From Halarcobacter bivalviorum (GTDB taxonomy: Bacteria > Campylobacterota > Campylobacteria > Campylobacterales > Arcobacteraceae): a DNA stretch of 64,000 nucleotides. Location of the stretch: positions 496,001-560,000 of the forward strand of contig NZ_CP031217.1 in the NCBI RefSeq assembly GCF_003346815.1. The letters run 5' to 3'. Shown piece by piece: positions 2,931-64,000 of this stretch. The stretch's first letter is position 1; every line of letters starts with the position of its first letter. Both the position numbers and the translations under genes were made by a program. The notes beneath the pieces were generated by a model. It did not search any database. It was not told the DNA's origin and saw only the letters and a list, made by a program, of their open reading frames with translations.

Positions 2931-3668
2931 ATGCATATTTTAGAACGAGATGTAGAGTTTATAGAAGAACAAAGAGAGTGTTCCTATTTTGATGATGAAG
3001 TATCTGATATTAGATATAGATATATAAGTAATTGTAAAAAAGAGGATTACCAAAATATGCTTGAACATGGTTGGCGTAGATTTGGTAAAATGCATTTTGT
3101 ACCTGAATGCAAAGCTTGTACAAAATGTATCTCTATGCGAATTGATGTAAAAAATTACAAATTCTCTCGTTCCGAAAAAAGGGTATTTAAAAAGAACTTG
3201 GATACAAAACTATATATTCAAGCTCCTTCTTTAACTTTAGATCACTTAAAACTTTATGATAAATATCACTACCATATGAATAAAAAGAAGGATTGGAACT
3301 ATTTCCCTATTGAACCTGCAGAATATGACAGGTCATATGTACAAGGTAAAGATGAGTTCACAAAAGAGTTTTTATATGTAAGAGATGGTAAATTAATTGG
3401 AGTTGCTTTAGTAGATATTTTATCAGAATCAATCTCTTCAATTTATTGCTTTTATGACCATGATTATGAAGATTTATCAATTGGTAAATTCTCTATCTTG
3501 GCTCAAATAAAAATTGCAAAAGAATTAAATATTCCATATATCTATTTAGGTTACTGGATAAAAGATCATTTATCAATGGGTTATAAAGAAGCGTATACTC
3601 CTTTTGAAATTTTAACTAACAGAGTAAGCCTTGAAGAAGAGGCTATATGGGAAAAGTACAAATCGTAA
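2931..3668 (+). CDS. bpt: Aspartate/glutamate leucyltransferase (Bpt/ATE family)
   Basis: This family transfers an amino acid from charged tRNA to the N-terminus of proteins, marking them for ClpAP-type N-end-rule degradation. The 245-residue protein has the N-terminal ATE domain with RECSYFDDEVSDIRYRY and the cysteine cluster PECKACTKCISMRID, followed by the GNAT-like C-terminal half with FLYVRDGKLIGVALVDIL, SIYCFYDH and LGYWIKDHLSMGYK. In bacteria with Asp/Glu N-degrons the amino acid is leucine (Bpt), which is the likely activity here but is inferred from family, not visible in the sequence. It follows trpA by six bases and is probably co-transcribed. Confidence 0.88.
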   Translation: MHILERDVEFIEEQRECSYFDDEVSDIRYRYISNCKKEDYQNMLEHGWRRFGKMHFVPECKACTKCISMRIDVKNYKFSRSEKRVFKKNLDTKLYIQAPSLTLDHLKLYDKYHYHMNKKKDWNYFPIEPAEYDRSYVQGKDEFTKEFLYVRDGKLIGVALVDILSESISSIYCFYDHDYEDLSIGKFSILAQIKIAKELNIPYIYLGYWIKDHLSMGYKEAYTPFEILTNRVSLEEEAIWEKYKS

Positions 3669-3713
3669 TCAAAATATGATATAATTTCTGCAATATTAAT
3701 AAAGCGAGAAGAT

Positions 3714-4052
3714 ATGAAAAAGATTATTCTAATATCTCTTTTTTTATTTTCAACTATTTTTGCAGAAACAATTGATGAAGATACAAAATATAGTGCAGAT
3801 TGTCTTATTTTAGAAGATGAAAACTCAATAGTTTGTAAATATATTCACGAACGTTCAGATGAGGACAAAGAGATTCAAGTTTTATGGATTGATCCAAATG
3901 GAGAAATCTCTAGAGATAGAACGGTATTGATTCCTGCAGGACATGGGTCAATTTATGATTTTAGATATATTGCAGGAAGATTACCTGGAATATGGCAATT
4001 TAAAGTTATAGATAATAAAAGAGAAACAGTAACAACTTTTGAAATAAAGTAA
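3714..4052 (+). CDS. Small secreted protein of unknown function
   Basis: I do not recognise a named family. The 112-residue product starts with a clear Sec signal peptide (MKKIILISLFLFSTIFAE, likely cut after the Ala) and should be periplasmic. The mature part is acidic, with two cysteines (ADCLIL and VCKYI) that could form a disulfide, and a C-terminal beta-rich stretch with GRLPGIWQFKVID reminiscent of a small beta-sandwich. A GCGAGAAGAT ribosome site precedes the ATG. It lies 45 bases after bpt and ends inside a perfect palindrome shared with the convergent feoB stop. Function unknown. Confidence 0.75.
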   Translation: MKKIILISLFLFSTIFAETIDEDTKYSADCLILEDENSIVCKYIHERSDEDKEIQVLWIDPNGEISRDRTVLIPAGHGSIYDFRYIAGRLPGIWQFKVIDNKRETVTTFEIK

Positions 4053-52466: not shown

Positions 52467-55033
52467 AAAATCTTAGTATAAAAATAAAGCTGATAATAAT
52501 TTTTGTATTAATTAAAATTGTACCTCTTTTAATTATCTCTTATATAGCATATCAAGGAGTAATCCAGTTAGATAAATATATTCATAATAGTACAGATTAT
52601 CTATTTAAAGAGAGTAAAAATATTATAAATCAAACTGCAAAAGCTTCTATTGATGATAGTATTAAGTTCTTAGACAAAAAATCTCAACTTTCACTGGAGA
52701 GACTATCTTATGAAATAGCAAATAATGTAGCTCAATTTTTATATCAAAGGGATGAAGATTTACTTTTTTTATCAAAAGTAGATTTAAATCAAGAACTTCT
52801 AGAAAAGTTTTACAACTCAAAACAAAGAGAGATAATTGTTCATGGTGAATATATTTATAATGAAAATACTAAAGTTTGGGTGTTAAAAAATAAAAAAGAT
52901 AGTCAAGAAGAAATAAAAAGAACTATTCTTGAAGATAATAAAAGAGAGTTTCATTTTACTGATGCTAAAAACTTTAAAAAGAAAAAAATACCAATTTATA
53001 AAGAGATTAGTTTTTTTAATTTAAAAGGAGAAGAACTTTATAAAATATCTTCAATTGATAATAAATTAAAAAATATTTCACTTCAAAAAAATACCTATGT
53101 AAATGCAGAAAACTATTTTCAAGAGATACAAAAATTAAAAAAAGATGAAATATATGTTTCTAATGTTATTGGAGAGTATGTAAAATCAAAAATTATTGGT
53201 AAATATACTAAAGAGAGAACAGATAAATTAAATATAGAGTTTGAACCTGAAAAATCAGCTTATGCAGGAAAAGAAAACCCAATAGGTAAAAAATTTGAAG
53301 GAATTATTAGATTTATAACTCCTGTATATAAAAACAATAAAAAAGTAGGTTTTTTATCTTTAGCTTTAGACCATGAACATATTATGCAGTTTACTGATAC
53401 AGTAAATCCTACAGGAAAAGAACCTGTACAAGATATTACTGATGCAAGTTCTGGTAATTATGCTTTTATGTGGGACTACAAAGGAAGAAATATTTCTCAT
53501 GTAAGAGATTTTTTTATAGTAGGTTATGATAAAACAACTGGAAAAGAAGTAATGCCTTGGTTAAGTGAGAGTTTAGCTAAAAAATATGAAGACTCAAAAC
53601 TTGAAATTAATGAATTTTTATCTTCTTATCCAACTTTTGAAAATCAAACTTTAACAAAAAAGCCAAATATTCAACAAGTAATAAAAGAAGGAAATGTAGG
53701 TTTGGATTGTAGATATTTAAACTTTGCACCTCAATGTCATGGTTGGATGGAAGTTACTAAAAATGGTGGATATGGCTCTTTTATTATCTATTGGAGTAAT
53801 GTTTGGAAATTATCAACAGCTGCAACAATTCCTTATTATACTGGACAATATGCCTCTTCAAAAAGAGGTTTTGGTTTTGTAACAATAGGTGCAAATGTAG
53901 ATGAATTTCATGCTGCTGCAAATGAGACTAAAAGAAGTGTAACTAAAATTTTAAATCAACAAACAGATAGTATGAAAGAAGTTGTTGAACAAAATGGTTT
54001 TGAAATTCATAAATTTATAATTATGTTAATAAATGAACTAACTATAGTAACTTTAATAATGGTCTTAATAATTATATTAATAGCTTTAGCTTTATCTTCT
54101 TACATAAGTAAAAAAATAGAAAAACTATTAATTGGTACAACTAAGTTTTCAAAAAATGAACTTGATTATCGAATAGAAGTTACAACAAATGATGAAATAG
54201 GAAAACTAGAAAAATCATTTAATACCATGGCTTCTAAACTTGAAGAACATATTAAAAAAGAAAAAGAGATAAATAAAACTTTAAAAATTAAAGTAGAACA
54301 AGAAGTTGCAAAACAAAGAAAACAAGAACAAATTTTAATCCAACAATCTAAGCATGCAGCAATGGGGGAAATGATTTCAAATATTGCACATCAATGGAGA
54401 CAACCTTTAAATGCAGTCTCTTTAGTTATTCAAAATTTGAAGTTTTCATATTATGCTGGGGATTTAACAAAGGAATCTTTAGACCGTTCAGTTGAAAAAG
54501 CAACAATGCTAACAAATAGTATGTCTAAAACAATTGATGATTTTAGAGACTTTTTTAAACCAAATAAAGTAAAAGTTGAGTTCTCTTTACAAAAAAGTAT
54601 AAATAGAGTTATCTCTTTAGTTGAAGCAAGCTTTAATAGTAGTGATATAAAAATTGAACAAGAAATACCTAAAAAAGAATTAACTATTTTTGGATATGAA
54701 AATGAGTTTTCTCAAGCATTACTTAATATTGTAAATAATGCCAAAGATATAATTCTTGAAAATGATATTAAAAATGGTTTAATTAAAATCTCCTCTTTTG
54801 AAGAAAAAGGCCTTTATGTTATTGAGGTTTCAGATAATGCAAATGGAATAAAAAAAGAGAATCAAGAGAAAATATTTAATCCTTATTTTACTACAAAAGA
54901 AGAGGGTAAAGGTACAGGAATAGGTCTTTATATGACAAAAACCATTATTGAAAATAATATGGAAGGTAAAATCTTCTTAAAAGAGTCTTCTTCTAAAGGA
55001 ACTATCTTTAGAATTGAGTTTAAAAAACTTTAA
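52463..55033 (+). CDS. Sensor histidine kinase with large periplasmic sensor and HAMP
   Basis: An 856-residue kinase. TM at about 9-29, a large periplasmic region to about 520 including a Cache-like part (IIRFITPVYKNNKKVGFLS) and an insertion with two conserved-looking Cys (NVGLDCRYLNFAPQCHGW) and SNVWKLSTAATIPYYTG, TM at about 525-548, HAMP, coiled coil, H-box EMISNIAHQWRQPLNAVSL with His643, and HATPase with NIVNNAKDII, SDNANGIKK and GTGIGLYMTKTII. Start is GTG 52463, overlapping the HD-GYP stop by four bases. The nearest partner is the HD-GYP receiver. Confidence 0.9.
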   Translation: MKNLSIKIKLIIIFVLIKIVPLLIISYIAYQGVIQLDKYIHNSTDYLFKESKNIINQTAKASIDDSIKFLDKKSQLSLERLSYEIANNVAQFLYQRDEDLLFLSKVDLNQELLEKFYNSKQREIIVHGEYIYNENTKVWVLKNKKDSQEEIKRTILEDNKREFHFTDAKNFKKKKIPIYKEISFFNLKGEELYKISSIDNKLKNISLQKNTYVNAENYFQEIQKLKKDEIYVSNVIGEYVKSKIIGKYTKERTDKLNIEFEPEKSAYAGKENPIGKKFEGIIRFITPVYKNNKKVGFLSLALDHEHIMQFTDTVNPTGKEPVQDITDASSGNYAFMWDYKGRNISHVRDFFIVGYDKTTGKEVMPWLSESLAKKYEDSKLEINEFLSSYPTFENQTLTKKPNIQQVIKEGNVGLDCRYLNFAPQCHGWMEVTKNGGYGSFIIYWSNVWKLSTAATIPYYTGQYASSKRGFGFVTIGANVDEFHAAANETKRSVTKILNQQTDSMKEVVEQNGFEIHKFIIMLINELTIVTLIMVLIIILIALALSSYISKKIEKLLIGTTKFSKNELDYRIEVTTNDEIGKLEKSFNTMASKLEEHIKKEKEINKTLKIKVEQEVAKQRKQEQILIQQSKHAAMGEMISNIAHQWRQPLNAVSLVIQNLKFSYYAGDLTKESLDRSVEKATMLTNSMSKTIDDFRDFFKPNKVKVEFSLQKSINRVISLVEASFNSSDIKIEQEIPKKELTIFGYENEFSQALLNIVNNAKDIILENDIKNGLIKISSFEEKGLYVIEVSDNANGIKKENQEKIFNPYFTTKEEGKGTGIGLYMTKTIIENNMEGKIFLKESSSKGTIFRIEFKKL

Positions 55034-55100
55034 AATAATATAGAAAGTATTTATTAAAATATAAGATGATAATATCATAATAAAAATTTAGGGAAAAATG

Positions 55101-55688
55101 ATGTTTAATAATTTAATTGCAAAAGAAGGACAAAGTAAAGTTTTTTATCTGTTTTTAGCTTTTGTTTTATTTTTTATTTTAGATTGTGAGTTTTTATCTT
55201 TTATCTTTTTTGTGCTTACTATATGGTTTGCATTAATTTATAGAAACAAAAGATTAGAAAAAGATTATGATATTTCTGATATTTTAGCTCCTATTTCAGG
55301 AAAAGTATCAACAATTGATAAAAGAGATAATAAAATACAAATTATAATTGATGTTTCTTTATGTGATAATCACATTTTAAGAGCACCAAAAAACGGTAAT
55401 TTTATCTTAATACATCAAAAAGGTTTAAATACTTTATTAGATTCATTAAAAGCAAAAAAATTAAATGAAAAAGCAACAATAAAATATTCTGATATGAATA
55501 TAGAATTAATCTCATCTTTATATGGAACAGATATTTCTATTTTTTCAAATGAAGCTCTTATGGGAGATAAGCTTGGAGTTTTTTTACATGGACAAGTTAT
55601 TGTAGAATTAGATAATTCACAAGAGATTTTAGTAAATATAGGTAATAAAGTAGAATCAGGAAAGACTGTTTTAGCGAGAGCTAAATAA
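55101..55688 (+). CDS. Phosphatidylserine decarboxylase-related membrane protein without processing Ser
   Basis: A 195-residue product. N-terminal hydrophobic segments (about 12-46), then ILAPISGKVSTIDKRD, an IIDVSLCDNHILRAPKNG segment and LGVFLHGQVIVELDNSQEI with NIGNKVESGKTVLARAK, which resemble the core and end of phosphatidylserine decarboxylase proenzymes (family ending G-S-T-V before the C-terminal strands). Here the Gly-Ser processing site is replaced by HGQVIVEL, so pyruvoyl formation by self-cleavage should not occur. I take ATG 55101, six bases after AGGGA; ATG 55098 is too close. Function is unknown; scaffold or lipid-binding relative are guesses. Confidence 0.65.
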   Translation: MFNNLIAKEGQSKVFYLFLAFVLFFILDCEFLSFIFFVLTIWFALIYRNKRLEKDYDISDILAPISGKVSTIDKRDNKIQIIIDVSLCDNHILRAPKNGNFILIHQKGLNTLLDSLKAKKLNEKATIKYSDMNIELISSLYGTDISIFSNEALMGDKLGVFLHGQVIVELDNSQEILVNIGNKVESGKTVLARAK

Positions 55689-55691
55689 GTC

Positions 55692-55720
55692 TTGACAAAA
55701 AAATCTTAAAAGATTATAAT
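55692..55720 (+). promoter_or_regulatory. Consensus sigma-70 promoter for leuA leader
   Basis: TTGACA at 55692-55697 and TATAAT at 55715-55720 are separated by exactly 17 bases, both hexamers matching consensus. Predicted transcription start is near 55727, about 20 bases before the leader-peptide ATG. Confidence 0.85.
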
Positions 55721-55747
55721 AGGCTCATAATTTTAAAGGAGAGTAAA

Positions 55748-55825
55748 ATGAAAATATTTGATTTTTATAAAAACCATTTCATCAAAAGTGTTAATACTCT
55801 TCTACTTCTTAAAAACTTCCTCTAA
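55748..55825 (+). CDS. Leucine-rich leader peptide upstream of leuA
   Basis: A 25-codon frame (ATG 55748, TAA 55823) with a strong AAAGGAGAG ribosome site, placed just after a consensus promoter and 97 bases before leuA. It ends TLLLLKNFL: codons CTT CTA CTT CTT AAA AAC TTC CTC, so five of the last eight are Leu. This is the layout of amino-acid leader peptides that sense leucine charge by ribosome stalling. No strong terminator hairpin follows, so the mechanism could be translation-linked or Rho-dependent instead. Not a functional protein by itself. Confidence 0.75.
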   Translation: MKIFDFYKNHFIKSVNTLLLLKNFL

Positions 55826-55922
55826 TATATAACATATTACAGAACAAATAATCACACGACTTAGTTTTTCTTTTTTAAATAAAAAAAGATATAATATTTC
55901 ACATTTTTAAAGGTTACACACT

Positions 55923-57476
55923 ATGGATAAGAATAAAATTATAGTTTTTGATACTACATTAAGGGATGGTGAACAATCTCCTGGTTGTTCGATGAATACG
56001 GAAGAGAAGATTAAAGTTGCATTACAATTAGAGAAATTAGGTGTAGATGTAATTGAAGCTGGTTTTGCAGCAGCAAGCCCAGGAGATTTTGATGCAGTTT
56101 CAAGAATTGCAGAAAGAGTTACAAACTCATCAATCTGTTCATTAAGTAGAGCAGTTGAAAATGATATTAAACAAGCTGGTTTAGCAGTACAAAAAGCGGC
56201 AATGCATAGAATTCACACATTTATTGCTACTTCACCAATTCATATGAAATATAAATTAAAAATGAGTGAAGAAGAAGTTATTAAAAGAGCAGTTCATGCA
56301 GTAGAATATGCTAGAACATTTGTAGATGATGTTGAATTCTCTTTAGAAGATGCTGGAAGATCAGAGATTCCATTTATGAAAGAAGTTATGGATGCAGTTA
56401 TCGCTGCTGGTGCTTCAACTATTAATTTACCAGATACAGTTGGATATAGATTACCAACAGAATTAGGTGCAATGGTAAAAGAATTATCAGATTTTGCAGG
56501 CGATAGAGCTAGAATCTCTGTTCATAATCACAATGACTTAGGATTAGCAACAGCAAATACTTTAGCAGCTGTATTAAATGGTGCAAGACAAATTGAAGTA
56601 ACAATTAATGGTTTAGGTGAAAGAGCAGGAAACTCTGCTTTAGAAGAGGCTGTAATGGCTATTAAAACAAGAAGAGATGCTTTTGGAGATTTATATACAG
56701 ATATAAATACAAAAGAGATTTATGCTACATCTAAATTAGTTGCAACTATTACTGGTGTTGAGCCACAACAAAACAAAGCAATTGTAGGTAAAAATGCTTT
56801 TGCTCACGAAAGTGGTATTCACCAAGATGGTGTATTAAAACATCAAGAAACATATGAGATTATGAGACCTGAAGATGTAGGTGTTATTAAAGACTCTACA
56901 TTAATCTTAGGTAAACACTCTGGACGTGCAGCATTTAGAGATAAAATCAATCAATTAGGATTTGATAAAGTAAGTGATGAAGAGTTAAATTCTGCATTTG
57001 AAAAATTCAAAGTATTAGCTGATAAGAAAAAAGATGTTACTGATGATGATGTAAGAATGTTAATTACAGATGAGTCTTTAAATCAAGATAAAACTTATGA
57101 ATTAGTAGGATTACAAATCTCTGACTGTTCAAATGGTGTTCCCACAGCAGCAGTATCTATTAAACACAATGATGAGGTATTAACAGATGCAAATATTGGT
57201 AATGGAACAATGGATGCAATCTTTAAAACAATTGATAGACTTACAGGCTACAATGGAGAGTTACAAAGTTATAATGTAACTTCAGTAACAGAAGGTAAAG
57301 ATGCTTTAGCAAAAGTTACAACAAGAGTTGTTTTTGATGATACTTCTCCATCATTTGTTGGACATGGATTAAGTGTTGATACAATGCTTGCAACTGCAAA
57401 TGCATATGTTAGTGCATTAAACTCTTATCTTTCTCAAAAACAGAGATTATCTAAAAATACTACTCACCAAGTATAA
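55923..57476 (+). CDS. leuA: 2-isopropylmalate synthase LeuA
   Basis: LeuA condenses acetyl-CoA with 2-oxoisovalerate, the first step of leucine synthesis. The 517-residue protein has [17 protein letters not shown], the metal and substrate site [34 protein letters not shown] and the C-terminal allosteric LeuA dimer domain for leucine feedback. It is preceded by a consensus promoter and a leucine-rich leader peptide. leuB, leuC and leuD are not adjacent. ATG 55923 follows AAAGG. Confidence 0.97.
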
Positions 57477-57484
57477 TTTATAAA

Positions 57485-57509
57485 ACAAGGTAGCCATGGG
57501 CTGCTTTGT
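57485..57509 (+). terminator. Terminator-like hairpin after leuA
   Basis: ACAAGGTAGCC (57485-57495) pairs with GGCTGCTTTGT (57499-57509), 11 pairs including two GU wobbles, with a three-base loop, nine bases after the leuA stop. No T tract follows, so its role as terminator is uncertain. Confidence 0.5.
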
Positions 57510-57635
57510 AACTTAACTCTTCCTAAACTTTCAAAAAAAGAAGTTTTAAAATTACTTTTTTCAGCAAAAAATTTGAAAAATCATATTAAAATAAAATTTA
57601 AAGGTTATATTAAATTTATGTGAAAGAGAGAGTGT

Positions 57636-59669
57636 ATGACACAATTAAACTTCTTCTTGAAGCTGTTAAAAGAGTCTTTTAGGGACTTAGTTCCTATTAT
57701 TGTTGTAATTTTATTTTTTCAACTTGCAATTATTCAAGCTGTTCCAGATGGGTGGCTTAGTACTGCTATTGGTTTAGCAATTGTTGGAGTTGGTTTAGCA
57801 ATATTTTTACAAGGTTTAGAAATAGGTATTTTCCCTGTTGGTGAAGGATTAGCGAGGGATTTTGCAAAGCATGGAACAATGCTTTGGGTTCTATTTTTTG
57901 CCTTTTTAATTGGATTTGGTACAACTATTGCTGAGCCCGCACTTGCCGTTATTGCAGATAAAGCTGCTTCTATTTCAAGTGGAAGAATTGATGCTACTAT
58001 ACTTAGACTTGTAGTTGCAGGCTCTGTTGGTTTTGCTATATTTTTAGGTGTTTATAGAATTTATAAAGGTCATCCAATTCACTACTATATCATTGCTGGA
58101 TATATGTTAGTAGTTGGAGTTACTTTTTTTGCTCCACAAGAGATTATTGGTCTTGCTTATGACTTAGGTGGAGTTACTACTTCTACAGTTACAGTTCCCC
58201 TTGTTGCAGCTCTTGGAATTGGACTAGCAACTACTATAAAAGGAAGAAATCCAGTTATTGATGGATTTGGACTTATCGCTTTTGCTTCATTAACACCAAT
58301 GATTTTTGTACAGATTTATGGAATTGCTGTATATAATTTAGTTGAAGCTAAAGATGTTGCAGACGTTGCAGTTCAAGCAACAGTATCTACAAGTGCAAAT
58401 ATTACTTTTAATTCTTTATTAACTGGAATAATAAATGTAATTAAAGATGTTGCACCAATTTTACTTATTATTTTATTTTTCCAATATGCCGTATTAAAGA
58501 AAAGAATTGATAATTTAAAAACAGTATTATTAGGTTTTGTTCTTGTTATTTTAGGTTTAGATGCCTTTATCCTTGGTCTTGAAATGGGGTTATTTACTCT
58601 TGGTGAGACTATGGCTTATCAACTTACAAAATCTGATTCAGTAATGATGATTTATGCTTTTGCTTTTGCAATTGGTTTTTCTACAACAATGGCAGAACCA
58701 GCTCTTATGGCTATTGCAAAAAAAGCAAAAGAGATTAGTGATGGAAAGATTAATGATTTTGCTTTAAGAATTTTTGTTGCTTTTGGGGTTGCTGTTGGTA
58801 TTGCTTTAGGAGCATTTAGAATTGTAGATGGGGGACATATTCACTACTACATTATTTTTGGATATATTGTAGTTATTATCTTAACTTCAATTGCTCCAAA
58901 ATATATTATTCCTATTGCATATGATTCAGGAGGAGTTACAACTTCTACTGTTACAGTTCCTCTTGTTGCTGCACTTGGGATTGGATTAGCTACAAATATA
59001 GAAGGAAGAAGCCCACTTATTGATGGTTTTGGTCTTATTGCCTTTGCTTCACTTTTTCCAATGATTACTGTAATGCTTTATGGAATTATTATTGAAAAAC
59101 TTGGTGTTAAATCTGATACTGAAATTGAAACTGCAAATATCTTGAAAGATGCACTTATTGATGCAGAAAATATGGACTTAGCAACTGTAAATATTGATGG
59201 AAGTGATAGAAGACACTCTTTACCAATGGATTTTTCAGCAGTTGTAATTATTGTACCTAAAGATAAAAAAATTGATGCAATTCAAGCTGCAAGTAAAGCA
59301 GGAGCTTCAGGTGTTACAGTATTAAGAGCAGATGGGATTGGACTTGGAGAGATGGATAACTTCTATAGAACTTCATTTGAGGCAAATGATGCTCTATTAT
59401 TATTCTTACTTCCACAAAGTTTAGTGAATCCTGTGATAAAATCTATTATTCATTCACTACATATAACAACAAGTGGTAAAGGTATAGCTTTTGCTTTCCC
59501 ATTAACTCATATGAAAGGGATTAGTTTAAGTAGACATGATATTTTTGTAAATAGAAAAGATCATAAAAATCCAGAAAATAATGTAGAAAAATTAATAAAA
59601 GAGGAAGAGGAAAAAGTTCTTGAAAAATTACAAGAACATTCAAAAATTGTAAATGAAGAACCTAAATAG
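57636..59669 (+). CDS. DUF1538 duplicated membrane protein with C-terminal PII-like domain
   Basis: A 677-residue polytopic membrane protein made of two similar halves. Each half has a GxGLAIFLQGLE-like or FILGLEMGLF segment, TIAEPALAVIA or TMAEPALMAIA, and GGVTTSTVTVPLVAA (about residues 178 and 432, 254 residues apart), features of DUF1538, proposed as a transporter of unknown substrate. Residues about 515-640 form a soluble PII-like domain with AVVIIVPKDKKIDAIQ, AGASGVTVLRADGIG and ALLLFLLPQ, which may bind a nucleotide or small ligand to gate the membrane part. ATG 57636 is after AGAGAGAG. It is followed with overlap by a thioredoxin-like gene. Confidence 0.85.
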   Translation: MTQLNFFLKLLKESFRDLVPIIVVILFFQLAIIQAVPDGWLSTAIGLAIVGVGLAIFLQGLEIGIFPVGEGLARDFAKHGTMLWVLFFAFLIGFGTTIAEPALAVIADKAASISSGRIDATILRLVVAGSVGFAIFLGVYRIYKGHPIHYYIIAGYMLVVGVTFFAPQEIIGLAYDLGGVTTSTVTVPLVAALGIGLATTIKGRNPVIDGFGLIAFASLTPMIFVQIYGIAVYNLVEAKDVADVAVQATVSTSANITFNSLLTGIINVIKDVAPILLIILFFQYAVLKKRIDNLKTVLLGFVLVILGLDAFILGLEMGLFTLGETMAYQLTKSDSVMMIYAFAFAIGFSTTMAEPALMAIAKKAKEISDGKINDFALRIFVAFGVAVGIALGAFRIVDGGHIHYYIIFGYIVVIILTSIAPKYIIPIAYDSGGVTTSTVTVPLVAALGIGLATNIEGRSPLIDGFGLIAFASLFPMITVMLYGIIIEKLGVKSDTEIETANILKDALIDAENMDLATVNIDGSDRRHSLPMDFSAVVIIVPKDKKIDAIQAASKAGASGVTVLRADGIGLGEMDNFYRTSFEANDALLLFLLPQSLVNPVIKSIIHSLHITTSGKGIAFAFPLTHMKGISLSRHDIFVNRKDHKNPENNVEKLIKEEEEKVLEKLQEHSKIVNEEPK

Positions 59670-59982
59670 TTTAGAAGAAGTTAATTCGATTATAAGTACA
59701 GGTGAGCCTGTACTTATATATTTTTCAGGACAAAATTGTTCTGTATGTACTGCCTTAAAACCTAAAATTGAAGAGCAAATCAATCTTAATTTACCAAAAA
59801 TTGAAACTTATGAAGTAAAAGCTGATATCTATAAAGAAATAGCAAGCAATTTTTCGGTATTTTCTATACCAACTATCTTGGTATTTTTTGATTCAAAAGA
59901 GTTTAAAAGAGAGGGAAGAAATATCTCTGTTATAAACTTTATAAGAGAGTTAGAAAGACCATACAATTTATTTATGGATTAG
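59653..59982 (+). CDS. Thioredoxin-like protein
   Basis: A 109-residue thioredoxin fold protein without signal peptide. It has LIYFSGQNCSVCTALKPKIEE with the redox motif CSVC, and the cis-Pro in FSIPTILVFFD. Thioredoxin usually has CGPC, so this is an unusual member, perhaps with a dedicated partner. The start ATG 59653 overlaps the DUF1538-PII gene by 17 bases, so coupling is tight. Role unknown; it might reduce a cysteine of the neighbouring membrane or haem protein. Confidence 0.88.
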   Translation: MKNLNSLEEVNSIISTGEPVLIYFSGQNCSVCTALKPKIEEQINLNLPKIETYEVKADIYKEIASNFSVFSIPTILVFFDSKEFKREGRNISVINFIRELERPYNLFMD

Positions 59983-59987
59983 GATAT

Positions 59988-60407
59988 ATGAAAAGAACGC
60001 TTTTAATATTTTTAATAGTATTTATTGTAATGCAATTTATACAAACAGATAAAATAAATAGTGAAACAAAGCCAGAATTAGAGATGAAAACACCTCCTGA
60101 GATAAGTGCTATTTTTAAACCTGCTTGTTATGATTGCCACTCAAACTCTACAACATGGCCTTGGTATTCTTATATTGCTCCTTTTTCATGGATAATTGAT
60201 TCTCATGTTACAAATGGAAGAAAAGCTTTAAACTTCTCAATTTGGGAAAGCTATGATGAAGAGAAAAAAGAAGAGAAAATGAAAGCTATTTTTAGAACAG
60301 CTTATGCTTCTATGCCTTTACAAAGTTATATTAAAGCACATGATAAAGCTAATTTGACAAGAGAACAAAGAACATTAATCAGAGATTGGACTGGAGTAAA
60401 AAAGTAA
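59988..60407 (+). CDS. Haem-binding domain protein, membrane anchored
   Basis: A 139-residue protein with an N-terminal hydrophobic segment (MKRTLLIFLIVFIVMQFI), a signal anchor or signal peptide, then a periplasmic domain with a c-type haem motif CYDCH in FKPACYDCHSNSTTWPWYSY, and IAPFSWIIDSHVTNGRKALNFS. This matches the small haem-binding domain family (Haem_bd). It lies five bases after the thioredoxin-like gene and one base before mutS. Electron-transfer role inferred. Confidence 0.9.
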   Translation: MKRTLLIFLIVFIVMQFIQTDKINSETKPELEMKTPPEISAIFKPACYDCHSNSTTWPWYSYIAPFSWIIDSHVTNGRKALNFSIWESYDEEKKEEKMKAIFRTAYASMPLQSYIKAHDKANLTREQRTLIRDWTGVKK

Positions 60408-60408
60408 A

Positions 60409-63369
60409 TTGAGAGAAGAAGTTCAAGCCTTATTAGAGGATAAAAAAACCTTACTTACAATTACCTATTTTAAACTTCAACAACTTTTTGAAAAGAAGTA
60501 TGGAGAAAATACTGTAGTACTTATGGAAATAGGTACTTTTTTTGAAGTTTATGAAGTAAATAATGATGAAGAACAAATAGGAAAAGCAAAAGAGATTGCT
60601 GAACTATTAAATATACAATTAACAAGAAAAAATAAATCTATTTTAGAAAACTCAAAAGAGAATCCTATTATGGCTGGAGTTCCAGCAATCTCTTTAGAAA
60701 AACATCTTGCAAGAATTATTTCAGAACAAAAATATACAGTAGTACTAATAAGACAAAAAGGTGTTCCACCTAAAGTAAGTAGATACCTTGATACAGTTGT
60801 AAGTCCTGGTACAAACTTTGATTTTGTAATAGACCAAGATGAAAATAATATCACATCTTTAGTAGTAGACCAAATAAAAGGTATCTATCTTGTAGGATAT
60901 TCTGCTATTGATGTAACAACTGGTAAGTGTTATTATAATGAAATTCATGGAACAAGTGAAGATAAGTTTTACTCTTTAGATGAAGTATTTAATTATATGA
61001 ATATGCATCGTACAAATGAGGTAGTAATTACCTTTGCTGATAAAAATATAAATCAAAAAGAGGTAATTGATTATTTAGAATTAAAACTAAAGACTTTTCA
61101 TATAGGAAACTTTATTCCAAAAGTTACTTACCAAAATGAACTATTCAAAAATGTCTTTGATATAGAATCACTACTTACAGCAATAGAACATCTTGATATG
61201 GAAAGAGCTCCTCTTAGTTCACAAAGTTTAGCAATACTTATTGATTTTGTAATAGGACATGATTCAAATATTATTCAAAAACTTTCACTTCCTATAAAAC
61301 TTGATGTCTCAAAATATATCTATTTAGGAAATAATGCTTTAGAGCAATTAAATATCATAGAGACTTCTCATAATCCAAGTTTAATAAAACTAATCAATAA
61401 TACTTCAACCGCAATGGGTAAAAGATTATTAAAAGAGAGACTTACTCATCCTGTAAAAGATAGCAAAGAACTGTTAAGAAGATATGCTTTATCAAAAGAG
61501 TTATTTGATTATCATGGACCTATTGAAAATGAGTTAGCAAATATTTATGATATAGAAAGACTTACAAGAAGAATAAAACTTGCAAGACTACATCCTTTTG
61601 AGTTAAACTATTTATATGACTCTTTACTTAGTATAAAAGAAGTAGTTGCTTTCATGGAGAACTATAAATTTATAACTCCACCTTGTAGCTTAGCCCAACT
61701 TCAAATGTTTATTGATTCTATTGAGTCAACTTTTGATTTAGCAGTATCTGGTAAATATATGTTAAAAGATGTTGAATCAAATATGGTTTGTGATGGAATA
61801 AACCATGAGATAGATGAGTTAAATAAAGAGAATGAAAAACTTTTTGAAAAATTAGAGTTAATAAAAAATCATATTTTAAAACTTTTAAATGCAAAAGATT
61901 CAAACTTTGTAGGTATTAATAGACTTGATAAAGAGGGTTTCTTTTTAACACTTACAAAAAATAGGTTTAACCTAATAAAAGAAGAGTTATTAAACTCTCA
62001 CCTTATTATTGATGATGAGTTACTACTTTTCAAAGATTTTAATATAAAACTACAAACTACTTCAGTAAAAATCTCTTGTAAATTAAGTGATGAAATCTCA
62101 GATAAATATGTACATAATTTAAGAAAAATTATAGAGCTAAATAAACTTGTATTTAAAGAGAAACTAAATGAGTTTGAAAAGAAATTTGCAACACTACTTG
62201 AAGAGTTAGTTCAGTTTATTGCTGAGGTTGATTTAACAGTTTCAAATATCAAAACAGCAAAAAAATATAATTATGTTTGTCCAAAAATAGTAAAAACAAA
62301 AGATGATGAAAACTTTTTAGAACTAATAGACTTAAGACATCCAATTATTGAAGCAAATGAAGAGCAGGGAATTTATGTACCAAATGATATTATCTTAGGG
62401 GAGTTATCCCTTTCAAAAGATGAGTTTAAAAATAATGTAATTATTAAAAACTCAAACCCTGTAAATATTTATAATAATAAAATGCATGGAGTTTTACTTT
62501 ATGGTATAAACTCTTCTGGTAAATCTTCACTTATGAAATCAATTGGTATAGCAGTTATTTTAGCTCAAGCAGGTTTTTATGTACCTTGTAAGTCAATGAG
62601 ATTTTCTATTTTTGATTCTGTTTTTACAAGAATAAGTGGAGCTGATAATATAGCAAAAGGACTTTCATCTTTTGCAGTAGAGATGCTTGAACTAAAAAAT
62701 ATATTTAATAGAGCTACAAAACAATCTTTAATCTTAGGAGATGAGATTTCTCATAGTACAGAAACAATGAGTGGTTTATCTATTGTTGCAAGTGCTATTT
62801 TAAAGTTAGCAAAACTTGAATCAATCTTTGTTTTTGCAACACATCTTCATCAACTTCCAGAGATTAAAGAGATTGAAAATCTTAAAAATATAATTCCACT
62901 TCATCTTTCTGTGATGTATCAAGATGAGGAAGATAAGCTTATTTTTGATAGAAAATTAAAATATGGAAGTGGTTCATCAATGTATGGATTAGAGTATGCT
63001 AAATCACTCCATATGGATAGAGAGTTCTTAAGCGTTGCAAATGAGATAAGAAAACGATTAACAGATGATTACGATAAGATAGAGAGACTTACTCAAAAGA
63101 AAACCTCTAAATACAATAAAGATTTATTTGCCTCTACTTGTATTATTTGTGGAAGAGCTTGTGATGATGTACACCATATCAAAGAACAAGCAAGAGCAAA
63201 TAAAGATGGTTTTATAGGTCATATAAATCAAAACCATAAATATAATCTAATACCGCTTTGTAAACTTCATCATAAAATGGTACATGAGGGTAAAATCAAT
63301 GTAAATGGTTTTGTGGCAACTTCAAAAGGGTTAGAGCTTCATTATACTATGGCTGAAGAGCAAGAGTAA
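60409..63369 (+). CDS. MutS-family mismatch protein with C-terminal HNH nuclease (MutS7-like)
   Basis: A 986-residue MutS homologue. MutS domain I has GTFFEVY (residues 42-48), containing the Phe-x-Glu mismatch reader; then connector, lever and clamp regions, and the ATPase with Walker A GINSSGKSSLMK (about 699) and LGDEISHSTETMSGLSI (Walker B Asp-Glu 778-779). The C-terminal about 80 residues are an HNH domain: CIICGRACDDVHHIKEQ (Cys911, Cys914, His922-923), YNLIPLCKLHHKMVH (Asn946, Cys951, His954-955). The fusion matches MutS7, a subfamily known from some Campylobacterota, giant viruses and octocoral mitochondria. Start TTG 60409. No mutL is seen, which fits a self-contained cutter. Confidence 0.9.
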   Translation: MREEVQALLEDKKTLLTITYFKLQQLFEKKYGENTVVLMEIGTFFEVYEVNNDEEQIGKAKEIAELLNIQLTRKNKSILENSKENPIMAGVPAISLEKHLARIISEQKYTVVLIRQKGVPPKVSRYLDTVVSPGTNFDFVIDQDENNITSLVVDQIKGIYLVGYSAIDVTTGKCYYNEIHGTSEDKFYSLDEVFNYMNMHRTNEVVITFADKNINQKEVIDYLELKLKTFHIGNFIPKVTYQNELFKNVFDIESLLTAIEHLDMERAPLSSQSLAILIDFVIGHDSNIIQKLSLPIKLDVSKYIYLGNNALEQLNIIETSHNPSLIKLINNTSTAMGKRLLKERLTHPVKDSKELLRRYALSKELFDYHGPIENELANIYDIERLTRRIKLARLHPFELNYLYDSLLSIKEVVAFMENYKFITPPCSLAQLQMFIDSIESTFDLAVSGKYMLKDVESNMVCDGINHEIDELNKENEKLFEKLELIKNHILKLLNAKDSNFVGINRLDKEGFFLTLTKNRFNLIKEELLNSHLIIDDELLLFKDFNIKLQTTSVKISCKLSDEISDKYVHNLRKIIELNKLVFKEKLNEFEKKFATLLEELVQFIAEVDLTVSNIKTAKKYNYVCPKIVKTKDDENFLELIDLRHPIIEANEEQGIYVPNDIILGELSLSKDEFKNNVIIKNSNPVNIYNNKMHGVLLYGINSSGKSSLMKSIGIAVILAQAGFYVPCKSMRFSIFDSVFTRISGADNIAKGLSSFAVEMLELKNIFNRATKQSLILGDEISHSTETMSGLSIVASAILKLAKLESIFVFATHLHQLPEIKEIENLKNIIPLHLSVMYQDEEDKLIFDRKLKYGSGSSMYGLEYAKSLHMDREFLSVANEIRKRLTDDYDKIERLTQKKTSKYNKDLFASTCIICGRACDDVHHIKEQARANKDGFIGHINQNHKYNLIPLCKLHHKMVHEGKINVNGFVATSKGLELHYTMAEEQE

Positions 63370-63387
63370 AGTTTAGGCTTTACTCTT
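63362..63387. terminator. Hairpin shared by convergent mutS and HPP gene
   Basis: AAGAGTAAAG (63362-63371) pairs perfectly with CTTTACTCTT (63378-63387) over TTTAGG. It holds the mutS stop codon (63367-63369) and touches the first base of the stop codon of the HPP gene (63387-63389, minus strand). Confidence 0.7.
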
Positions 63388-63896
63388 TATATCCAGTAGT
63401 TTGGATAGACTCTTTTTTTGTGTAAATTGTTATAAAGAACACCAACTAAAATTATAATCATAGCCCCTAAAGCAGTAGGTAAGAATAGGAAATCCCAAGA
63501 AGCACCCATTAAGAATACTATAACAGGATTTGAACCTGCTGGAGGATGAACTGTTCTAGTAAGTAACATCATGGCAACTGCAGAGGCTAAAGCTAAGGCT
63601 AAACTCCACCAATAATCTCCCACAAAATGGAAAAAGAATAATCCCATAAATGTAGAAATTACATGTCCAAAAAAGATATTTCTTGGTTGAGAGAAGGGAC
63701 TCTCACTAAATCCAAATAGTAAAACACAAGTTGCTCCAAATGAACCCATGATAAAGATATTTTCATAACTATTTGTTAAGTAAGCAACAACTGATATTGC
63801 AATAAATGCACCAATAAAAGCAAAGGCAACCTCAATAGCCTCTACTTTTGGGGGAAGTTCTGCCTTATTTCCTTTTATTTTTTTTATATAACTCAT
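63387..63896 (-). CDS. HPP family integral membrane protein
   Basis: A 169-residue membrane protein with four TM segments. It has the family signature RTVHPPAGSNPVIVF with the His-Pro-Pro motif, and ends with LGAMIIILVGVLYNN and HKKRVYPNYWI. HPP proteins have been linked to nitrite transport in chloroplasts; the bacterial role is unsettled. The start is ATG 63896, preceded by AGGAGA on the minus strand. Only this domain is present, without a CBS pair. A TetR-type palindrome lies just upstream. Confidence 0.9.
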   Translation of the reverse strand: MSYIKKIKGNKAELPPKVEAIEVAFAFIGAFIAISVVAYLTNSYENIFIMGSFGATCVLLFGFSESPFSQPRNIFFGHVISTFMGLFFFHFVGDYWWSLALALASAVAMMLLTRTVHPPAGSNPVIVFLMGASWDFLFLPTALGAMIIILVGVLYNNLHKKRVYPNYWI

Positions 63897-63911
63897 AAAA
63901 TTCTCCTATAT

Positions 63912-63929
63912 CAAACAAACGATTGTTTG
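63912..63929. promoter_or_regulatory. TetR-type operator palindrome upstream of HPP gene
   Basis: CAAACAA (63912-63918), four bases, TTGTTTG (63923-63929) form a perfect inverted repeat located about 15 bases upstream of the HPP start codon. Arms and spacing resemble operators of TetR-family regulators. The regulator is not identified in this window. Confidence 0.5.
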
Positions 63930-63949
63930 GTTAAAAGGGCAAAAAAAAT

Positions 63950-64000
63950 TTAAACCTTAGCTAATAGTTTTTTTCCTATTTCTAAAAGTCTATTTTTATT
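63950..64000 (-). CDS. C-terminal tail of an unidentified gene
   Basis: Minus-strand reading from the window edge gives 16 codons, NKNRLLEIGKKLLAKV, then a TAA stop at 63950-63952. The helix looks like the N-terminal helix of TetR-type regulators, yet it ends at a stop. It is either the C-terminus of the upstream gene or a broken TetR start; sequence beyond the window is needed. It lies 53 bases upstream of the HPP gene on the same strand. Confidence 0.3.
   Translation of the reverse strand, partial: NKNRLLEIGKKLLAKV

Follow-up and report, generated by a model that had tools for sequence, protein, structure and literature searches.

The stretch analysed here, referred to as the window, comprises 64,000 nucleotides of the Halarcobacter bivalviorum genome (contig NZ_CP031217.1, positions 496,001 to 560,000), a single contig of 2.68 Mb, and positions are counted from its first letter. 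Near its end lies a long open reading frame (ORF), here called umpAB-PII, whose product consists of two DUF1538 membrane halves followed in the same chain by a PII-like domain (Table 1). This arrangement had been described in a first-pass annotation made from the letters alone, and its coordinates and motifs are confirmed: GGVTTSTVTVPLVAA occurs at residues 178 and 432, TIAEPAL at 97 and TMAEPAL at 351, and the two halves are identical at 121 of 234 positions (52%). DUF1538 (PF07556) matches the protein in two stretches with 454.6 bits, against a Pfam gathering score of 22.6, and P-II matches residues 535-627 with 27.8 bits (E 3.4e-6; Pfam cut-off 25). The fused protein is found in 16 of the 16 genomes of the genus, with 86-94% identity in the other 15, and its relatives include Halarcobacter sp. 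(L021, 89%), Malaciobacter halophilus (L028, 86%) and other Arcobacter-type bacteria.

Table 1. Features of umpAB-PII and of the genes downstream. The seven transmembrane (TM) segments per half are our own grouping of predicted helices.
Feature	Positions	Strand	Evidence or remarks
umpA-umpB-PII fusion, 677 aa	57636..59669	+	DUF1538 (two) and P-II profile matches, AlphaFold2 model
UmpA-like half, residues 1-254, 7 TM segments; AEP motif E100-P101, D176-x-G178-G179	57636..58397	+	NF041627 281.5 vs NF041628 186.5 bits, conserved columns, predicted helices
UmpB-like half, residues 255-492, 7 TM segments; E354-P355, D430-S-G432-G433	58398..59111	+	NF041628 246.8 vs NF041627 239.3 bits (nearly equal), predicted helices
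Fusion-specific linker, residues about 493-530	59112..59225	+	His-Ser pair H527, S528 conserved in 47/47
PII-like domain, residues about 531-637	59226..59546	+	P-II match 535-627, fold matches 531-636
T-loop region of the PII-like domain, about residues 565-584			partly low confidence
Terminator-like hairpin, 12-bp perfect stem, 4-nt loop TGAG, tail TATTTTTC	59691..59718	+	terminator scan, covariation
Thioredoxin-like protein, CSVC; neighbour, outside the antiporter	59653..59982	+	PF00085 39.6 bits; kept without DUF1538
Haem_bd protein, CYDCH, N-terminal hydrophobic stretch; neighbour	59988..60407	+	PF14376 140.7 bits
MutS-like protein, HNH-like C-terminus; partner of the thioredoxin-haem block	60409..63369	+	PF00488, PF05192, PF01624 over cut-off

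The membrane part had been described as an uncharacterised transporter, in a module with no known function. This does not hold, because Na+(Li+,K+)/H+ antiport has been measured for a DUF1538 pair, UmpAB of Halomonas zhaodongensis, in which two 7-TM proteins form a heterodimer (PMC5484666). In that study, E. coli KNabc was rescued only when both UmpA and UmpB were supplied, from a construct without a PII gene, and the terms 'PII' and 'P-II' are absent from its main text. When the two halves of umpAB-PII are scanned apart, the first scores higher as UmpA and the second marginally higher as UmpB, which gives the order UmpA-like then UmpB-like with a small margin for the second unit. Because these scores point to UmpA and UmpB but stay under the equivalog cut-offs (discussed below), the membrane part is named UmpAB-like. 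In the conserved columns, the Glu-Pro pair of the AEP motif is invariant in each half (E100/P101 and E354/P355); among the Asp and two Gly residues at the broken helix of each half, D176 is nearly invariant, and G178, D430 and G432 are invariant. These positions are candidates for a cation/proton site. DUF1538 also appears in the gene table of a machine-learning study of growth pH (PMC13255231), and in two papers on cable bacteria UmpAB is considered a gene that may serve salt adaptation (PMC12093952, PMC10030654).

The motif GFGTTIAEP/GFSTTMAEP (57636-59111) is similar to the GTSLPE motif of CaCA exchangers. A CaCA exchanger origin of DUF1538 was considered but is not supported: hhalign against PF01699 gives a probability of 1-3%, and a reversed control is as good (the split units in the input were assigned to UmpA or UmpB crudely, by length). 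In the second half, the register of this comparison sets AEP on GTSLPE in a profile match that is not significant, and the TM model aligns with NCX_Mj at Z 5.3 and rmsd 5.7 over 174 residues.

The three parts of the fused gene occur as neighbouring genes in other bacteria. DUF1538 is present in 88 of 397 genomes of Campylobacterota (87 over the cut-off), and regions were taken from 39 of these 88, chosen by hand for spread, and from G004; 20 of the regions are unfused and 20 are fused. In 20/20 unfused regions, an UmpAB of about 500 aa has a PII gene directly downstream at a distance of -4 to +13 bp, and in 17 of them a CBS-pair gene comes after the two. The three others are L089, without a CBS match, L093, with a frame of 1714 aa that was not judged, and L084. 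In L084, a GAF-domain protein (3277-3768, minus strand) stands in the place usual for the CBS gene after PII. In the 20 fused regions, no CBS gene is found on the strand of the fusion, with one exception: besides the fusion, L118 carries an additional unfused copy, accompanied by PII and CBS genes of its own. The L106 region stops at the fused gene, leaving no downstream sequence to judge. In a genome sample centred on Vibrio, DUF1538 is present in 90 of 274 genomes, and the central Vibrio genome itself (L048) has the order umpA-umpB-PII-CBS. Within this class, PII lies within 301 bp of umpAB in 40 of 42 genomes (the two misses are at contig ends) and a CBS gene is found in 38 of 42, the 42 being a non-random set of the 29 best-scoring loci and 13 chosen by hand. 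Nine plasmid records match DUF1538, and in all four examined, from Clostridia and Alphaproteobacteria (Methylocystis, Chelativorans, Peptoclostridium and Paraclostridium), the DUF1538 gene has a 'P-II family nitrogen regulator' as its neighbour, while a CBS gene is lacking. Among the separate relatives, L041 stays under the P-II Pfam cut-off of 25 with 17.0 bits, and L048 scores 41.0. Two clostridial DUF1538 genes (L204, L206) neighbour a 222-aa PII gene, the L204 protein having two P-II stretches, and in L226 (1543-4406) a second DUF1538 gene directly follows umpAB-PII.

In a quick tree of 87 rows, which left out two truncated rows (L034, L140), the fused proteins make up one side of a branch with an SH-aLRT of 100. 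The fusion thus looks like one event, and the link between PII and umpAB looks old. When genes that lie side by side in other genomes are found fused, this is a classical sign that their products cooperate. Among the titles and abstract openings searched, a range outside which most subscription papers fall, there was no study on an association of PII-like or CBS proteins with a DUF1538 antiporter.

The AlphaFold2 model of umpAB-PII (mean pLDDT 78.5, pTM 0.66, 81 alignment rows) has two similar helical halves in the membrane part and, at residues 533-631, the order beta-alpha-beta-beta-alpha-beta-beta, with a loop of low confidence at 570-582. Structure prediction had been proposed as a check on the PII-like segment, and it bears the assignment out: by Foldseek against the Protein Data Bank (PDB), the best matches of this part are SbtB, CPII and PII (probability 1.00), and by VIA-align, model residues 531-636 match SbtB at Z 12.0 and rmsd 2.0 over 83 aligned residues, tied with canonical PII. 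A PII-like, ferredoxin-like fold is therefore well supported by the model, with the closest subgroup tied between SbtB and canonical PII. Sequence searches of the PDB gave zero matches with the whole chain and just RecG (E 0.45) with the separate Vibrio PII. In the membrane part, the predicted inner loops contain 18 basic residues and the outer loops 7, by our own tally. From this charge bias and the odd number of TM segments per half, the two halves should lie antiparallel in the membrane, and the PII-like domain should be cytoplasmic.

Ion-related genes accompany some of the fused loci. Among 43 such loci (42 distinct contigs), nine have an RCK gene directly upstream and a Kch-type channel gene before it, eight of them distinct, L033 and L101 being the same contig. 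In L028, the same place is taken by a CPA antiporter with TrkA_N; in L091, TrkH lies three genes upstream, and a histidine kinase gene adjoins umpAB and overlaps it. The window's own locus has no RCK/Kch genes upstream. These K+ channel/RCK, TrkH and CPA neighbours fit a role in cation homeostasis.

As for the ligand of the PII-like domain, four glycines (G567, G569, G614 and G616) are invariant in 47/47 fused proteins; they belong to the loops from which the nucleotide cleft of PII is built. Fused proteins have a T-loop of their own, with N575 and R578 in 47/47, whereas almost every separate protein has an FFG loop. The DAC domain of c-di-AMP synthases is found in 0/16 genomes of the genus, against 11/14 controls, and c-di-AMP was rejected as the cell's own ligand on this ground. 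Because of the analogy to SbtB and CPII and the CBS partner elsewhere, the best guess for the ligand is an adenine nucleotide (AMP, ADP, ATP or cAMP).

We consider it reasonably probable that the product of 57636-59669 is a single-chain UmpAB-like Na+/K+:H+ antiporter gated by its own PII-like adenine-nucleotide sensor. The chain would exchange monovalent cations (Na+/K+) for protons, and its C-terminal domain would respond to an adenine nucleotide, AMP, ADP, ATP or cAMP being the probable candidates, while c-di-AMP made by the cell itself is an unlikely ligand. The ligand state may shift the T-loop against the transporter and so open or close the antiporter, a step modelled on the presumed action of SbtB on SbtA and of GlnK on AmtB. 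Three chains would probably come together, with a PII trimer at the centre. The fused gene would represent umpA, umpB and PII, still separate elsewhere, joined into one, without a CBS partner gene beside it. A wider proposal, which appears evenly poised, is that a whole branch of PII proteins, partnered by CBS, acts in alkali-cation/pH homeostasis in several phyla by gating DUF1538 Na+/K+:H+ antiporters according to the adenine-nucleotide state, and that sensor and antiporter were fused in Campylobacterota.

Several observations weigh against the nucleotide-gated antiporter. Each half lies far under the NCBIfam equivalog cut-offs (281.5 vs 490 for UmpA; 246.8 vs 500 for UmpB), and the whole chain exceeds the NF041627 (UmpA) cut-off solely by summing the two halves; the split Vibrio units are likewise under the UmpA/UmpB cut-offs (381.8 and 360.4). 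The Foldseek E-value of the PII-like domain is modest (best 2.7e-3). For the TM part, Foldseek against the PDB gives zero matches below 1e-3 and the best VIA-align Z is 5.6, a missing match being no proof of a new fold (a first TM alignment, A3, placed single halves wrongly and was discarded). The T-loop and C-terminal signatures of PII (PROSITE patterns) occur in 0/47 fused proteins and in 0 of the 103 separate ORFs, a count that includes copies from overlapping loci. The Lys and Arg at the phosphate contacts of canonical PII are replaced in the PII-like part, which leaves nucleotide binding to analogy, and the separate Campylobacterota PII-like proteins do not as a rule share G567 and G614. 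Finally, 34 of the 43 fused loci have no K+ channel/RCK genes alongside.

The missing signatures and the T-loop rewritten in the fused clade could also mean that the PII-like domain has lost ligand binding and merely keeps the antiporter trimeric. This is quite improbable in our view: the four cleft-loop glycines are kept throughout the fused proteins, although G567 and G614 are less so in the separate Campylobacterota ones, and the separate PII has been kept as a gene of its own, usually beside CBS, in at least two phyla. Another alternative is that DUF1538 carries a different kind of solute, such as bicarbonate, ammonium or an organic ion, and that PII senses the carbon or nitrogen state, since AmtB and SbtA are among the known PII partners (PMC8352866) and just one assayed DUF1538 pair came to light. 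The activity measured for that pair is, however, cation/proton antiport (PMC5484666), K+ channel, RCK, TrkH and CPA neighbours are present in some genomes, and the canonical PII signature and contact residues are missing; a different substrate is thus unlikely. A canonical nitrogen PII was rejected as an identity for the domain on the missing signatures; the genome itself has two separate canonical PII genes, with both signature patterns in 2/2, as well as a GlnD_UR_UTase-domain protein.

The reading of umpAB-PII as an antiporter with its own sensor leaves the genes downstream to be placed. The thioredoxin ORF overlaps umpAB-PII by 17 bases and the haem gene follows after 5 bases, as the first-pass annotation had it; that annotation also called the CSVC motif unusual, which is contradicted by its presence in 51 of 57 distinct relatives of the thioredoxin gene. 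CYDCH is found in 56 of 60 haem-gene relatives. PHROGs returns a generic thioredoxin match and zero matches for the haem protein. In the MutS-like protein, DUF968 and HNH_2 matches are under the cut-off, and a study of octocoral mtMutS mentioning MutS7, HNH and Epsilonproteobacteria suggests this type of MutS (PMC3166940). Elsewhere in the window, a phosphatidylserine-decarboxylase-like ORF slightly above the Pfam cut-off (55098-55688, plus strand) and an HPP membrane protein (63387-63896, minus strand) were noted.

It had further been suggested that the antiporter, the thioredoxin and the haem protein form one redox-linked membrane module. The short gene overlaps agree with this, as does a gene order that is kept in most Arcobacteraceae loci: among the 43 fused loci, thioredoxin lies downstream in 26 and haem in 27, all Arcobacteraceae-type by gene order. 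Outside Arcobacteraceae, 14 fused loci are available, 13 with downstream sequence, and thioredoxin or downstream haem is found within 700 bp in 0/13; the only counter-example seen is L116, whose Haem_bd gene (3369-3827) lies 97 bp upstream of the fused gene and speaks for the module. In the other direction, 16 of 20 listed DUF1538-less Arcobacteraceae genomes were fetched, all picked for having the haem gene, and there thioredoxin and haem are adjacent in 13/16 and mutS follows haem in 14/16; two of these loci (L159, L161) read leuA-Kch-RCK-trx-haem-mutS. G149 does carry DUF1538, but the 10 kb surrounding its trx-haem-mutS block (L171) are free of it; in G363 the fusion is present and the haem search gives no match. 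The proposed test of co-occurrence therefore upholds the conserved order within Arcobacteraceae but not the unity of the three genes, which also occur apart, in both directions. The module was rejected on this double dissociation and is very improbable. Since trx-haem-mutS is kept without DUF1538 and the fusion is found without haem, umpAB-PII, with or without Kch-RCK, behaves in the loci compared like a cassette that sits between leuA and a trx-haem-mutS block independent of it. The thioredoxin, Haem_bd and MutS genes, the last with an HNH-like C-terminus (59653-63369), make up a conserved block of their own in Arcobacteraceae.

The hairpin at the junction lies inside the 5' end of the thioredoxin reading frame, 21 nt past the umpAB-PII stop, and the terminator scan of the region finds 4 such sites vs 1.1 expected. 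A stem of at least 10 bp is present in 30 of 41 distinct thioredoxin starts behind umpAB-PII, the longest being 16 bp in L013; where present, the hairpin has its start at -1 to +25 nt relative to the stop, and 4-7 of the 10 bases after it are T. Thioredoxin starts without umpAB alongside (n=17) have stems of at most 8 bp, and the hairpin is found in 0/17. In 40 aligned sequences (one row, L170, which has an N, was excluded), 89.2% of pairing cells are paired vs 77.9 in shuffles, 8 of 12 stem pairs have two-sided changes, and covariation is 0.307, compared with 0.135 for shuffles (0/500) and no more than 0.080 for slid positions, the structure being taken from the window sequence, which somewhat favours it in the slid control. 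The synonymous chance of one sequence attaining a 12-bp stem is 0.8%. The structure seems to be kept despite the coding frame, and its most natural reading is an intrinsic terminator or attenuator of umpAB-PII, forced into the thioredoxin gene by the gene overlap. Such an element, set between umpAB-PII and the thioredoxin-haem pair, argues against tight co-expression of umpAB-PII and thioredoxin and against the redox module. The tie between hairpin and umpAB is confounded by descent, with only 1 supported independent pair and 5 on all branches. Rfam gives two matches up to E 1 at 55000-64000, both under the gathering scores.

The transporters best known to be under PII control are those for nitrogen and carbon. 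If the proposed gating is true, a PII-like sensor joined to a Na+/K+:H+ antiporter, or encoded beside it as in many bacteria, would couple ion and pH homeostasis to the adenylate state. The 'P-II family nitrogen regulator' genes next to DUF1538 would then gain a testable role other than nitrogen control, and the fused chain offers a handy single-gene object for such a test. Compared with UmpAB of Halomonas zhaodongensis (PMC5484666), umpAB-PII has the same two homologous 7-TM DUF1538 units, UmpA then UmpB, but these are two genes there and one ORF with a PII-like domain here. In SbtA-SbtB, the T-loop sits in the transporter cleft and partly blocks the tunnel exit, with an in vivo role that the paper leaves unsolved; a two-repeat transporter with a PII-like trimer is the likeness, and the SbtB fold is among the best, tied matches (PMC8352866). 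The difference is that SbtB is a separate protein, and SbtA is not among the matches listed for the TM model, which excludes nothing. AmtB-GlnK shares the PII-type control of a membrane transporter, but GlnK-type PII carries the signature motifs and the PII part of umpAB-PII does not. CPII of Thiomonas is a separate protein from another context; it shares the PII-like fold and, by the titles of its PDB entries, binds ADP, AMP and bicarbonate. Overall, we judge umpAB-PII to be a new architecture within a known antiporter family, one whose PII-like partner is conserved.

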